Assembly (NCBI GenBank): GCA_024278345.1
Contig: JAJRTK010000095.1
Location: forward strand, 1 to 12,420
DNA: 12,420 bases
Direction: 5' to 3'
Origin: a bacterium
Lineage (GTDB): Bacteria; CSSED10-310; JAJRTK01
The notes below the pieces were generated by a model. The model worked only from the letters and a program-made list of their open reading frames with translations, did not search any database and was not told the DNA's origin. Made by a program: the position numbers and the translations under genes. This document shows positions 1,647 to 7,093 of the stretch, piece after piece; the first letter of the stretch is position 1; every line of letters begins with the position of its first letter.

Positions 1647-4600
1647 TTAGCTTTGGGGTTCGGGATCCCGCACAACTAAGCTGTAGACCGTGGGAATGAC
1701 CACAAGGGTCAAGATCGAAGAACTGGTCAACCCGGCAATGAGGGTCACTGCCAGTGGCACGCGCATCTCTGCCCCCTCCCCGATGCCAATGGCCATGGGA
1801 ATGAGCCCAAGGACAGTGGTGGCCGTCGTCATGAGAATCGGCCGGAGGCGAACCTGGCCGGCATGTTGGATGGCGCGGCGCACGTTCATCCCCCGCTGTC
1901 GGCACTGATTCGCATAGTCAATAAGAACAATGGCGTTGTTGACGACGATGCCCACAAGCACGATCATCCCGATGTAGACGACAATACTCACTGGGGTGTC
2001 GAGCAGGTACAGAGCTGCCAATGCACCGACGGCTGCAAGGGGAATCGAAAAGAGCACGATGAGGGGCTGGATGAACGACTCGAACTGGCTGGCCATCACC
2101 AGGTAGACAAGGAATACGGCCAGGGCCAAGGCGAAGATCAAGCTCTCGAAGGAAGCTTGCATCTCACGATTCTGCCCACTCACTTCCACGGTGGTTCCGG
2201 GAGGTAGGCTCTGGGAGTCAAGGATTCCCTGGATCTTTCGAGCCAGAGTTCCCAGGGCCACGCCGGATACGTTTGCGGAAAGTAGCGCAACCCGGCTTTG
2301 ATCGATCCGCTTGATCTCACTGGGACCGCGGCCGACTTCCAGCGTGGCCACGGCAGACAGGGGAATGGGGCGACCCACGCCGGGATTGACGATGAGGTTT
2401 GCCAGATCCGCGATGCTCCGTCGCTCCTTGTCCCTCAGGCGCACGCGGACATCGAGTTTCCGTTCGCCTTCATTGTATCTTGTGGCCACGTCGCCCTGAA
2501 CCAGGTCCCGTACAAGCTGAGCCACTTGCCGAAGATCCAGGCCCAGGGATGCCATCTTTTGACGGTGAAAGATGATCTGGATCTCGGGGTATCCGGCTTC
2601 GAGGTTGGAACGAAGGTCTTCCAGACCAGCGACCTCGTCAAGGCGTTTCACAAGCCTTACCGAGATTCTCTGGAGCTGGTCCAGATCGTCTCCTTTGACC
2701 TCGATCTCTAAGGGAGTTCTGAACGAAAAGAGGGAAGGAAACGAAAGTTGTGTCACAATTCCCGGCAGCTCTAAAAGAAGGTGGCGAAGCTTCTTGACTA
2801 CCCTTGTTTCCAGCGCGGCCAATGGCAGGCCCGCCAGAGCTGCCGCCGCTCGATCGAGGTAAAAATTCACAATGGCCTCGTTCTCCCGCTCCTGCGCCTC
2901 GGCAAAACTGCCTTCCTTCGAGATGCCCACGGTCGTATAGGTGGTAGCAATGCCTGGTATTTCCTTTGCCACGCCTTCCAGGCGGGCGGCAAAACGACTC
3001 GTTTCGTCCAGAGTCGTTCCAACGGGGCGTTCCAGGGAAACAGAGAACTCGCCCTGGTGCATACGCGGGATAAGCTCATCCCCCAAACGCGACCAGAGCA
3101 AAGTCGAGCCCCAAAGCAGGAGCAAGCTCAACCCGATGACACCGAGAGCGCGATCCATCGCCAAATCGAGGACCGCTGGATAGAAGCTGGTCAACCGTTC
3201 GAGAACCGCCTGAAAAAGCTTCTGGGGAAGCCAAATCAGAGCCCTGCAAAGCTGGAGGATGACCCAGATCCCGCCTCCGACGGTTCCCAGGGCCAACACG
3301 ACGATGATCTCCGCTACGTGACCCAAGAGGGTCAGCACCGCGCCGAGCAAAAGAGCCGTGAACCCAAAGAGCGCGCCGGCCAGGTGGAGAATCAGACGGG
3401 GTAGGAAGAGCAACGCTCCCAGGGCTCTCCGTGCTGGTCGAGGACCCGGTAGCCAGCGAGGCGGACGGAAAAGCGCCCGAAAGAACCCGAAAAAAAGATC
3501 CTTCACCGGCCGCCACAACTCGAATCTAACATAGGCGCCGAGCCGCTGTCCCAGAACGACGACGAACCCCACTGGCAAGAGCGCCACCACGAAGGGCGAC
3601 CACCGGCCAGAAGCGTCACCAGCCGGCAAGAGCTTGCCCCTTGCCCACGCCAAAGCGGATCGAGCGAAGTTGGCCGACCAGAGCTTCTCCCCCTCCAACC
3701 GACTGGGTAGGCGGAGCGCCGCGAGCATGGGAACCAAGGTCAAAGAGACAACCAAAGATGCCATGAGCGAAAAGGTCACGGTTAATGCCTGATCAGTGAA
3801 GATCTGCCCGGCCACCCCCTTGACGAACGAAATGGGAAAGAAAACCGCAACGGTGGTCAAGGTCGATGCCACGACGGCGGTCCCCACTTCACGGGTTCCC
3901 CGGCGGGCGGCATCGGTGACGGAATCTCCCTCTTCCCGGCATCGAAAGATCGATTCCAGCACGACAATGGCATTGTCCACCAACATGCCGATCCCCAGAG
4001 CCAACCCGCCAAGAGACATGATGTTCACTGAAACATGGCCAAAATACATGAGCGAAAAGGTGGCAACGACGCTGATGGGAATCGACAGGGCGACGATGAG
4101 GGTTGCCGGAAGCTTGCCCAAAAAGAAATAGAGGATCAGGATGGCCAATCCGCCGCCATAAATAGCGGCATCCAGGACCTCGCGTATGGAGTTCTCGATG
4201 AAGCGTGCCTGATCCTGAATCAACCGTAAATAGATGCCGCCAGGAAGGGTGTCGGCGAGTTTCTGACGCTCTTCGGGCTGCCCAAGAGCCGAAGCCGGTT
4301 TCTTCTGCTTGCCCGCGCTGCGATTCTTCCCCTGGATCTCCGATTCCTCGGTGCGTCGGCCCGCGGCACGCTGCACGTTCCTGGAAACCGCGACGGTATT
4401 GGCATCGGCCTCTTTGTAAATCGCAATCTCAACACTCTCCATGCCGCCGATGCGGGTGATCACCTTTCGGTCCTTAAACCCTATGCGGGCTGTGGCCACA
4501 TCTTGCAGCAAAATATTGGCACCAGCGATCTGCTTCAAGATGAGGCCGGAAATCTCTTGGAGGCCGCGGAATTCGTTGGTCGTGCGAAGAAGGTAATCGG

Positions 4601-5261
4601 CGTCCCCATGCTTGAGAGTCCCGCCGGCCAGGTTGACATTTTCCTGTGCCAGCCTTTGTTTGACGAGATCGGCCCCGATGCCGTAACGGATGAGCTTGTT
4701 CTTGTCGAGCTCGATGAGGATTTCCCTCTCGACGCCCCCCTGAACCTTGGCCGCCGCCACGCCGGGGATCCGCTCCAGTTGCGGCTTCAGTTCTTCCTCG
4801 GCAAGCTGCCGGAGCTCGTGTAGATCGGCGGCGCCATAAAGGCCGTACCGCATGATGGGATCGAGCGCCGGGTTATAGCGCAGAATCCGTGGCCGAGACA
4901 CCTCTTCAGGCAGGGCGATGAGATCGAGCTTCTGCCGGATATCGACGATGGTGTTATCGAGATTGGTGTCCCACTCGAGCTCCAGCAAGACTTCCGACGT
5001 GCCTGCCCTGGATAGAGAACTCAGGCGAGTAAGATTCCGCACGGCGGCCAGAGCTTCCTCGATGGGGATGGAGACCAGCCCTTCCACCTCCTGCGGGGCC
5101 GCTCCTTCATAGGCGGTACGGATGGTGATGCTCGGATAGGAGAGCTCCGGCATCAGATTGATCTCGAGGCGCGAGTAACTGAAGTAACCGAAGACCAACA
5201 CGCCAAGGGTGAACATACTGACGGTCACTGGCCTTTGGATGGCGGCGGAACTCAGCTTCAT
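1647..5261 (-). CDS. RND (AcrB/HAE1-type) efflux permease with unusual insertions
   Basis: This 1204-residue protein is an inner-membrane resistance-nodulation-division permease, which exports substrates by proton antiport with a periplasmic adaptor and outer-membrane channel. Family marks are the N-terminal IQRPVTVSMF helix, the porter domains with an INLMPELSYP start, TM4 G-x-x-LVDNAIVVLES (residues 425-437; D429), TM10 VGIVVNNAIVLIDYANQ (1103-1119), and RLRPILMTTATTVLG (1138-1152). ATG 5261 is chosen because AGGAG sits 6 bases upstream and the conserved N-terminus begins there; the open frame runs 26 codons further up, to 5339, but overlaps the adaptor gene. The adaptor's stop is 14 bases upstream, so the two form an operon. 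Typical family length is about 1040. The excess is a hydrophobic insertion at about 530-690 between TM6 and TM7 and a charged insertion at about 297-337. No substrate can be inferred. Confidence 0.95.
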   Translation of the reverse strand: MKLSSAAIQRPVTVSMFTLGVLVFGYFSYSRLEINLMPELSYPSITIRTAYEGAAPQEVEGLVSIPIEEALAAVRNLTRLSSLSRAGTSEVLLELEWDTNLDNTIVDIRQKLDLIALPEEVSRPRILRYNPALDPIMRYGLYGAADLHELRQLAEEELKPQLERIPGVAAAKVQGGVEREILIELDKNKLIRYGIGADLVKQRLAQENVNLAGGTLKHGDADYLLRTTNEFRGLQEISGLILKQIAGANILLQDVATARIGFKDRKVITRIGGMESVEIAIYKEADANTVAVSRNVQRAAGRRTEESEIQGKNRSAGKQKKPASALGQPEERQKLADTLPGGIYLRLIQDQARFIENSIREVLDAAIYGGGLAILILYFFLGKLPATLIVALSIPISVVATFSLMYFGHVSVNIMSLGGLALGIGMLVDNAIVVLESIFRCREEGDSVTDAARRGTREVGTAVVASTLTTVAVFFPISFVKGVAGQIFTDQALTVTFSLMASLVVSLTLVPMLAALRLPSRLEGEKLWSANFARSALAWARGKLLPAGDASGRWSPFVVALLPVGFVVVLGQRLGAYVRFELWRPVKDLFFGFFRALFRPPRWLPGPRPARRALGALLFLPRLILHLAGALFGFTALLLGAVLTLLGHVAEIIVVLALGTVGGGIWVILQLCRALIWLPQKLFQAVLERLTSFYPAVLDLAMDRALGVIGLSLLLLWGSTLLWSRLGDELIPRMHQGEFSVSLERPVGTTLDETSRFAARLEGVAKEIPGIATTYTTVGISKEGSFAEAQERENEAIVNFYLDRAAAALAGLPLAALETRVVKKLRHLLLELPGIVTQLSFPSLFSFRTPLEIEVKGDDLDQLQRISVRLVKRLDEVAGLEDLRSNLEAGYPEIQIIFHRQKMASLGLDLRQVAQLVRDLVQGDVATRYNEGERKLDVRVRLRDKERRSIADLANLIVNPGVGRPIPLSAVATLEVGRGPSEIKRIDQSRVALLSANVSGVALGTLARKIQGILDSQSLPPGTTVEVSGQNREMQASFESLIFALALAVFLVYLVMASQFESFIQPLIVLFSIPLAAVGALAALYLLDTPVSIVVYIGMIVLVGIVVNNAIVLIDYANQCRQRGMNVRRAIQHAGQVRLRPILMTTATTVLGLIPMAIGIGEGAEMRVPLAVTLIAGLTSSSILTLVVIPTVYSLVVRDPEPQS

Positions 5262-5275
5262 GGAGCGCTCCTGGT

Positions 5276-6448
5276 TCAGTTCCGCCCACCGACGACATGG
5301 ACCTGTGTTCCGGACTTGAGGCTCTGCTGGCCGACGCAAACCAGAAGATCCCCCTCTTCGATGCCAGACTTGGCTTCGAGAAACTTGTCGTTTTTGTACC
5401 CTGCCTCGAAAAGGACAAGCTCCGCGGTTTTCAGAGACTTTGGAGGCGCGGAGGCGGAATCGGAGGGAGGCTGCCCCTCGGCGGCCTCCGCCAACCCCAA
5501 ACTGCCCACAGCCGCTCCGCGGGACTTGGGCGTCGCAGCAGGCGCTGGCTCTTCTTCCTCTGGAACCTCCAGAGGCCTGATGACAAAGACGGCCATTCGT
5601 CCGTCACGGTCCATTGCGGCTCTCCGGGGCACCAAAACCACTCCTTCGTGGGTATCGGCAATGATCCGAACCTGGACGAACATTCCTGGCTTCAGCAGGT
5701 TTTTTCGATCTTCCAAGTCAATGGTCACCTTCACGGTACCGTTCCGTGGATCCACCGCGGGACTAATCCGCCGCACCCGGCCGGGGAAAATGATCTCTGG
5801 ATAGCCATCACTGAGGATCTCCGCTCGAAGGTGGGGCCGGATCTTTGCGACGACATTTTCCGGCAAGTGGACTTCGGCCACGCGGGAGCGCATATCGACG
5901 ATGGAAAAGGCGAGATTCGATGGGCTCACCCTCTCGCCAAAGCGAAGGCCACGCTGGGTGACAAGGCCCGGAATGGGTGCGACAATCTTGGTATTCTCGA
6001 GCCTGAGCTCGGCAAGTTCGCGGGAGATTTTGGCCTTCTTGACCGCGTATTTCGCGGCCTCGTAGGACTCCTGGCTGGTCATCCGGTTGCGGTGCATCTC
6101 CTCAAGGCGGATGAGCGTGGCTTGGAGTTCCGCATAACTTGTTTCCGCCTGTTTGTATGCTAACTCCAGCTCGGCGGGATCGATTCGAGCCAGGAGCTGC
6201 CCCTTCTTGACCCAGTCTCCTTCCTCCGCCTTGATAAGAACAATCTCTCCGGACACCTTTGGATAGACATCCACTTTCGACTCACTGTCGATGGTGGTGG
6301 TGGAAAGAATATAGGTGGAGATATCCCCTGTCACGGCGGAAACGACTTCCACGGGTGCTGGAGGCGTGTCCTGAGACTTGGCCTCCTCATCAGTCCGCGG
6401 CACACAAGAAGCGAGGAGAACCAGAACCACTAGACCCGGATATCTCAT
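5276..6448 (-). CDS. RND efflux periplasmic adaptor (membrane fusion) lipoprotein; start supplied by a MITE-like element
   Basis: This is a HlyD/AcrA-type adaptor of 390 residues that would bridge the RND permease to an outer-membrane channel. It starts MRYPGLVVLVLLASC, a short signal peptide with lipobox LASC; Cys15 would be lipidated. The order is a lipoyl/barrel-sandwich half (about 58-93, VYPKVSGEIVLIKAEEGDWVKKGQ), an alpha-hairpin (about 95-150), the second lipoyl half with APIPGLVTQRG (157-167), a beta-barrel (about 187-265) and a membrane-proximal domain with VLVPRRAAMDRDG. A low-complexity E/A/P/S segment (about 293-338) interrupts the last domain. No Shine-Dalgarno precedes ATG 6448, and that codon lies within the inverted repeat of an inserted element. 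The frame stays open upstream to ATG 6628, which gives a 450-residue form beginning MGLAL with 61 element-derived residues. The product is certain; which start is used is not. Confidence 0.9.
   Translation of the reverse strand: MRYPGLVVLVLLASCVPRTDEEAKSQDTPPAPVEVVSAVTGDISTYILSTTTIDSESKVDVYPKVSGEIVLIKAEEGDWVKKGQLLARIDPAELELAYKQAETSYAELQATLIRLEEMHRNRMTSQESYEAAKYAVKKAKISRELAELRLENTKIVAPIPGLVTQRGLRFGERVSPSNLAFSIVDMRSRVAEVHLPENVVAKIRPHLRAEILSDGYPEIIFPGRVRRISPAVDPRNGTVKVTIDLEDRKNLLKPGMFVQVRIIADTHEGVVLVPRRAAMDRDGRMAVFVIRPLEVPEEEEPAPAATPKSRGAAVGSLGLAEAAEGQPPSDSASAPPKSLKTAELVLFEAGYKNDKFLEAKSGIEEGDLLVCVGQQSLKSGTQVHVVGGRN
6430..6434. repeat. Target-site duplication copy 1 (CTAGA)
   Basis: CTAGA directly abuts the outer end of the left terminal inverted repeat. 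On the adaptor strand it reads TCTAG and lies in the codons for Gly-Leu-Val of the signal peptide. Confidence 0.8.
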
Positions 6449-6612
6449 CAAGGATCGTCGCGAGGCAGTCTGAGGCGCGTTTCCACCAAGGATGAGGAAA
6501 GGCGGACACCGGAGGCGTAGTCCTGCACTACGTCGAGGATGTCCCACCGACGAAGACGCCGGTGGAGACGATGAATCAGACGCCGCAGTAGATTTTTGAT
6601 GAGATATCCGGG
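6435..6612. mobile_element. MITE-like element, 178 bp, with 17-bp perfect terminal inverted repeats
   Basis: Its ends are CCCGGATATCTCATCAA at 6435-6451 and the exact reverse complement at 6596-6612. Both ends are bordered directly by CTAGA (6430-6434 and 6613-6617), as expected of a 5-bp target-site duplication. The interior is an imperfect palindrome around 6524. Its centre is CGTAGT(CCTGC)ACTACG at 6516-6532, with partial matches further out at blocks such as GTCTGA and TCCACC, so the whole unit could fold into one long hairpin. It carries no transposase gene and would need one in trans. Element plus duplication is 183 bp, exactly 61 codons, and it is open in the adaptor's frame. The CC-starting ends and 5-bp duplication would fit an IS1380-like parent, but that assignment is only a guess. 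Confidence 0.85.
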
Positions 6613-6617
6613 CTAGA
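6613..6617. repeat. Target-site duplication copy 2 (CTAGA)
   Basis: This is the identical pentamer abutting the outer end of the right terminal inverted repeat. Deleting the element and one pentamer copy joins the two flanks into a continuous coding sequence for a lipoprotein signal peptide. Confidence 0.8.
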
Positions 6618-6628
6618 GCCAAGCCCAT
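6613..6628 (-). other. Displaced native 5' end of the adaptor gene (ATG plus first codons)
   Basis: On the minus strand this reads ATGGGCTTGGCTCTAG. Joined to the sequence beyond the element it gives MGLALVVLVLLASC, a hydrophobic core with a lipobox, so this is the probable ancestral start. It still connects in frame to the adaptor through the element. Two cautions apply: no strong Shine-Dalgarno lies upstream, and the reconstructed signal peptide has no basic residue before its hydrophobic core, so a start further upstream cannot be excluded. Confidence 0.6.
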
Positions 6629-7008: not shown

Positions 7009-7093
7009 GCGGAAGTGGCGGAACAGGTAGACGCGCACGCTTGAGGGGCGTGTGGTGAGAGCCGTGGGGGTTCGAGTCCCCCCTTCCGCACCA
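7009..7093 (+). tRNA. tRNA-Leu (anticodon GAG)
   Basis: The cloverleaf can be drawn fully: acceptor stem GCGGAAG (7009-7015) with CTTCCGC (7083-7089), discriminator A 7090 and encoded CCA 7091-7093. The D stem is GCG/CGC around AACAGGTAGA. The anticodon stem CACGC/GCGTG encloses loop TTGAGGG, giving anticodon GAG at 7043-7045, which reads CUC and CUU. The variable arm is class II (13 bases, 7053-7065) with a short GGT/GCC stem. The T stem GGGGG/CCCCC encloses TTCGAGT. The class II form and this anticodon identify leucine. It stands alone, with its own promoter and terminator. Confidence 0.97.

Follow-up and report, generated by a model that had tools for sequence, protein, structure and literature searches.

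The window analysed here is a 12,420-nt stretch of DNA from a 6.06-Mb MAG in 550 contigs, referred to below as the host genome. It contains a gene for an HlyD/CusB-type efflux adaptor, in which a MITE occupies the N-terminal, signal-peptide region, and the gene for the adaptor's partner. The features are listed below, with the evidence for each in brackets.

1647-5339, minus strand: gene for an RND efflux pump (ACR_tran), the adaptor's partner (Pfam, 1.6e-230)
5276-6628, minus strand: HlyD/CusB-type efflux adaptor gene, interrupted in frame (Pfam HlyD_D23, 5.1e-25, and HlyD_3; reading frames)
6430-6434: left copy of the target-site duplication, CTAGA (sequence; 5-bp duplications around 18 further copies)
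6435-6451, plus strand: left terminal inverted repeat, CCCGGATATCTCATCAA, whose minus strand reads ATG AGA TAT CCG G (sequence)
6452-6595, plus strand (the RNA-like strand): structured core, a long rod of five helices (covariance models R1 and R2; covariation)
6452-6456, plus strand: 5' arm of helix 1, pairing with 6591-6595 (covariation)
6464-6473, plus strand: 5' arm of helix 2, pairing with 6576-6584 (covariation)
6478-6487, plus strand: 5' arm of helix 3, the GTTTCCACC region, pairing with 6561-6570 (both-side changes in 8 of 10 pairs)
6503-6510, plus strand: 5' arm of helix 4, pairing with 6537-6545 (covariation)
6509-6539, plus strand: most conserved motif, CCGGAGGCGTA-loop-TACGTCGAGGA, comprising helix 5 and an internal loop (near-invariant in 27 genomes/contigs)
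6596-6612, minus strand: right terminal inverted repeat (sequence)
6613-6617: right copy of the target-site duplication, CTAGA (sequence)

A tRNA-Leu (gag) gene lies at 7009-7093 on the plus strand, and the long ORFs that overlap it on both strands are spurious.

An earlier note on this DNA had described a 178-bp unit with perfect 17-bp inverted ends between identical CTAGA pentamers, and these boundaries were confirmed. The left end is matched by its exact reverse complement, the unit spans 6435-6612, and CTAGA stands at both borders. The inverted ends can be extended to 22 nt at 91% identity. Also as described there, taking out the unit and one CTAGA leaves a continuous minus-strand frame (...SSVQMGLALVVLVLLASCVPRTDEE; MGLALVVLVLLASC) that runs on into the adaptor. 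With the unit present, the frame is likewise open, over 183 bp or 61 codons (MGLAL-ARISHQKST...SLMRYPG-LVVLVLLASC).

The note's larger claim, that the unit is a MITE placed there by a real transposition event, is supported by its many copies, their differing 5-bp duplications and matching IS ends. When the host genome was searched with a 188-bp query, 46 DNA matches were found, and a 16-base end pattern occurred at 68 sites, compared to none for the reversed control pattern; the inverted-end unit is therefore not a product of chance. Further subfamilies are present at about 70-80% identity to the unit, and the structural model R2 (described below) finds copies at about 65 places. Exact 5-bp duplications border 19 of the 36 distinct host copies that have both ends, the kind of variation among copies that the note had named as support. 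These duplications are AT-rich and mostly differ in sequence (e.g. CTAGA, CTAAA, GTAGA, TTCTA, ATAAG, CATAA). Short and geneless, with terminal inverted repeats, varying target-site duplications and a high copy number, the element has the properties of a MITE. Some host copies (L024 1250-1648, L053 1501-1884, L011 1501-1739) are themselves interrupted by other repeats, in nested insertions, one of which is bounded by GGYATCCACGC / GCGTGGATGCC and another by GTGAACGG-type ends. Two contigs (L002 and L003; C97 and C364) end six bases past the same MITE end, indicating that the assembly broke at the repeat.

The sole host match to PF13701 (IS1380 transposase) is a C-terminal fragment (L062), with an outward end, CCCGAATATCTCATGA, and CTAAA about 190 bp further on. 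An intact IS1380-type element (L136, in genome G036) has CCCGGATATTTCATAA at both ends and TTAG on each side, and another element (L137) has CCCGGATTATTCACGA upstream of its transposase. The MITE ends are common to all three, in line with the note's expectation of an IS with matching ends. Because IS1380-like ends occur in both the host fragment and the intact element, IS1380 is the best candidate for the mobiliser, and we infer that a transposase of this family moved the window copy in trans. A check of single terminal repeats and their flanking frames in the host genome turned up no intact transposase with these ends, and an intact autonomous partner there was rejected on these grounds. PF13701 was also undetectable in G042, a genome of another phylum, despite 39 copies of the core there. 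Upstream of the host fragment (L062 1-225), a stretch of about 155 bp lies between CTCGGTCATGGTACCGGCCA and its reverse complement; this palindrome is either another palindromic insertion or an assembly fold-back.

Insertion as such is ordinary for MITEs, and in-frame fusions are already well known. The presumed original ATG of the adaptor is at 6628-6626, and the lipobox LASC directly follows the insert. The left terminal repeat carries an ATG of its own at 6448-6446 on the minus strand, directed towards the adaptor gene. A start at this ATG would yield MRYPGLVVLVLLASC; it combines a positive n-region with a lipobox and is a short but plausible candidate for a new lipoprotein signal, and we infer that the terminal-repeat ATG may be used in this way. 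Since the frame is open and the terminal repeat supplies such a start, the interrupted adaptor can remain functional. Direct inspection of the sequence revealed no Shine-Dalgarno-like site ahead of either ATG (6448 or 6628), and no promoter was seen near the window copy of the MITE. The RNA-like strand of the core, the plus strand of the window, is antisense to the adaptor. The closest adaptor relatives, from a set of genomes with none from the host's family, are at most 34% identical, too distant to reveal an orthologous empty site.

We then turned to the interior of the element, whose conserved structure the note had not noticed. Once the terminal repeats are removed, the core is 144 nt long and forms a five-helix rod whose purine-rich internal loops are invariant. 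Folding of the entire unit is far better than that of its shuffles, both as RNA (z -8.2, minus strand) and as DNA (z -7.2, plus strand). Diverged subfamilies keep the pairing at one helix while its sequence changes (GTTTCCACC/GGTGGAGAC, GCAGCCGGC/GTTGGCTGC, CACGAGAAC/GTTCTCATG). Among 14 sequences aligned with plain MAFFT, both-side changes were seen in 22 of 39 pairs, and 87.5% of cells were paired, compared to 30-45% in slid controls. With 46 sequences, the number of such pairs rose to 36 of 39, and with 89 sequences to 38 of 39, with 88.3% of cells paired (33-40% in slid controls) and 1053 doubly changed cells (358 +/- 19 when shuffled). One caveat here is that the 89-sequence alignment was fitted to the model and hence leans towards its structure (alignments A2 and A4 were both model-fitted). 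Covariation nevertheless exceeds every control, shuffled and slid values alike being far lower, as is expected of a structured RNA.

Invariant or near-invariant unpaired positions include CCGGAGGC/GTYGAGGA around helix 5, AAGG and RACGCAG. Longer forms of the core have similarly conserved unpaired GCGAGG/GCAGTAG, which may resemble a sarcin-ricin/loop-E motif. A CsrA-type sponge (ACAAGGA) was considered and dropped, as the final A is not conserved. Neither the window nor the cores of 20 loci matched Rfam 15, even at E<=1, and a known Rfam family was rejected because nothing exceeded the gathering score. Open-literature searches, by motif letters and for MITEs with a conserved covarying core, returned nothing relevant. 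Thus, neither an Rfam 15 family nor an open-literature description was found for the core, which appears to be previously uncatalogued.

Mismatch types distinguish the core from the ends. In the core, G-U outnumbers A-C about fivefold (295 vs 58), compared to 1.5-fold in the ends (68 vs 45). The difference persists with helix 5 left out (199:56 in the core vs 68:45 in the ends, p = 0.0006), and the MAFFT alignment, which was not fitted to the model, gives 52 G-U vs 8 A-C. Moreover, the plus strand is the more stable one in 120 of 125 copies. With the terminal repeats as an internal control, these data suggest that selection acts on the ends as double-stranded DNA and on the core as a single folded strand. 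Judging from the covariation and the G-U excess, the core would be selected as the folded plus strand of the window, most simply as RNA.

To chart the distribution of the core, we used two covariance models, R1, built from 14 aligned cores with the terminal repeats trimmed off, and R2, built from 89 sequences; Infernal E-values for these searches are rough. R1 matched at E<=1e-3 in 25 of 386 genomes, mostly in multiple copies, with nearly all matches spanning model positions 1 to 144. The seven other genomes of the host's phylum gave no core match with R1 at this threshold. Three genomes (G387, G391 and G395) were first detected with R2, bringing the total to at least 28 genomes. These are spread across many bacterial families. 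R2 matches numbered 150 or more in G263, 114 in G214, 42 in G391, 39 in G042 and 13 in G387. The immediate flanks of the modelled region, from which nothing entered the model, are complementary in most copies; in 54 foreign copies, at least 11 of 15 flank positions are complementary or wobble, and many of these copies have duplications. The weak matches in G042 proved to be full MITEs with a related core and the ends CCCGGATTATTCATGAG.

Two phage contigs carry two core copies each, as found with the covariance model. These copies (L194, 9074-9220 and 13678-13798; L195, 745-875 and 5425-5552) have a shorter form of the core and lie about 4.6 kb apart, one of those in L195 just upstream of an apparent major capsid gene. 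Blastn against phage and plasmid collections gave no match, and a further viral match (L196) was rejected as a chance coding match. Core copies in G138 and G050 (L182, L240 and L254) adjoin tRNA-gene-like sequences. In G263, at least 150 copies occupy a 4.5-Mb genome, several of them at contig ends, and tandem copies with a period of about 160 bp stand at a contig end in G236 (L244 3-279).

The ends that surround this core differ. IS1380-type ends flank it in the host, G042, G155, G278, G362, G214, G211 and G377. The ends in G263 are GAGCCAATTGCAAAAT, with 4-bp duplications, and those in G098 are GTAACTGCTCAGGT, with 8-bp duplications; others include AGGAGCCTGTCGGAGTAA (G300 and G161), GGTCCGGAAAGAAAC (G124) and GGATCGCGCCGCCCGG (G073). 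Duplication length accordingly varies among genomes (4, 5 or 8 bp). Ends differ between G073 and G214, which are of the same family, and G155 and G050 each have more than one kind of end. Because the ends vary within a family and within a genome, the core and the ends that the transposase recognises are evolutionarily separable, whether through cores being captured or through ends being replaced. A second end family in G263, suggested by L228, was dropped, because a truncated copy lies right next to the second hairpin at that locus.

Collectively, these data make it probable that the window holds an IS1380-moved MITE whose interior is a widespread structured module selected as a folded strand, and that this element jumped in frame into the adaptor gene. 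An IS1380-family transposase would move the non-autonomous unit in trans via its 17-bp ends, and insertion duplicates 5 bp of AT-rich target. The interior is not a decayed transposase gene but a member of a module of about 145 nt that occurs, in many bacterial families, within MITEs whose ends are of several unrelated kinds. The window copy inserted itself, in frame, into the adaptor's signal-peptide region. More speculatively, transcripts across the module might form a stable rod, recognised or tolerated by a widely conserved host factor, and elements bearing the module might spread or persist better, whichever transposase supplies their ends.

Strand asymmetry fits a folded DNA strand equally well, and, as noted above, the window unit also folds far better than its shuffles as DNA. 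The core could thus act as single-stranded DNA, one strand folding during replication or transposition and aiding excision or targeting. However, DDE transposases of the IS1380 type act on double-stranded ends, and the near-invariant G-U pair, like the internal loops, is suggestive of RNA. We consider this explanation unlikely.

Somewhat less probable still is an ordinary IS1380-derived MITE with neutral filler, devoid of RNA function, and with palindromic arms whose complementarity is maintained by quasi-palindrome (template-switch) correction during replication. Such correction could also produce paired changes, though no strand-specific G-U excess, and MITE transcripts generally fold into long stem-loops (PMC2229807, PMC10969869). 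Copies have no preferred orientation with respect to the genes around them (41 of 75 on the same strand, p = 0.49), which is in keeping with neutral filler, and nothing therefore links the core to carriage in mRNAs. Arm homogenisation, however, would not be expected to leave unpaired loops invariant across 27 genomes/contigs, to place the same core within elements of unrelated ends, or to confine the bias of G-U over A-C to the core.

That the core is selected, downstream of genes and in sense orientation, as a 3'-UTR or transcript-stabilising element was hinted at by the strongest foreign copies, 23 of 28 of which share the strand of their upstream ORF; this bias disappeared with all 75 fetched copies and a stricter ORF length (p = 0.49, above), and the host's own copies divide 12 to 12, making the explanation highly improbable. 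The same is true of a protein-coding insertion, similar to Rickettsia palindromic elements (RPE) and kept for its added peptide: most copies have an open minus-strand frame, the window copy is in frame with its gene, and in-frame MITE fusions are documented (PMC10969869, PMC2229807), but only 7 of 36 host copies lie inside predicted ORFs, several break long frames, and selection acts on base pairs and not on one peptide frame.

Beyond the joint reading, there is a broader possibility, to which we give slightly less than even weight: one RNA or folded-single-strand module may be shared cargo, captured or kept by MITEs of several unrelated transposon families across many bacterial families, aiding their spread or tolerance independently of the transposase. 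Speculatively, a host factor or the way its transcript behaves might mediate the benefit to the element. If the shared-cargo reading is true, the core would be a selfish folded element, not tied to the transposase responsible for its movement. The usual view of MITEs is of decayed insertion sequences with an irrelevant middle, and this core contrasts with it. It makes several ideas testable, namely selection on a MITE interior, a host factor that reads it, and an advantage to any transposon, and it would add a new RNA family to genome annotation. In the window copy we also have a case where the target gene may owe its start codon and signal peptide to a terminal repeat.

Several known systems share some of these properties. 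IS1380-family ISs (PF13701) and their derived MITEs have the ends CCCGGATATYTCATSA and 4-5 bp AT-rich duplications, and a fragment with the same end is present in the host; here, however, the interior is not IS-derived, and the host MAG is one in which no intact partner was found. HEARO/OMEGA RNAs (mobile-element RNAs in Rfam) are likewise structured RNAs borne by transposable elements, whereas our core has no Rfam 15 match and no nuclease gene attached. RPEs are palindromic elements of about 150 bp that insert in frame into ORFs; in our family, in-frame intragenic copies are exceptional, and both the target duplications and the IS ends are evident. MITEs whose transcripts form stable stem-loops, and in-frame fusions of MITEs to ORFs, are well known from bacteria (PMC2229807, PMC10969869, PMC5896051), and Correia/NEMIS, ERIC, BOX, CIR and QMITE1/2 resemble the present element in being multicopy, 100-200 bp long, able to form a stem-loop in the transcript and, in some cases, fused to ORFs (PMC2229807, PMC10969869, PMC5896051). 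These are known from one genus or a few related genomes, whereas here one covarying core with invariant loops occurs between unrelated ends in many families.
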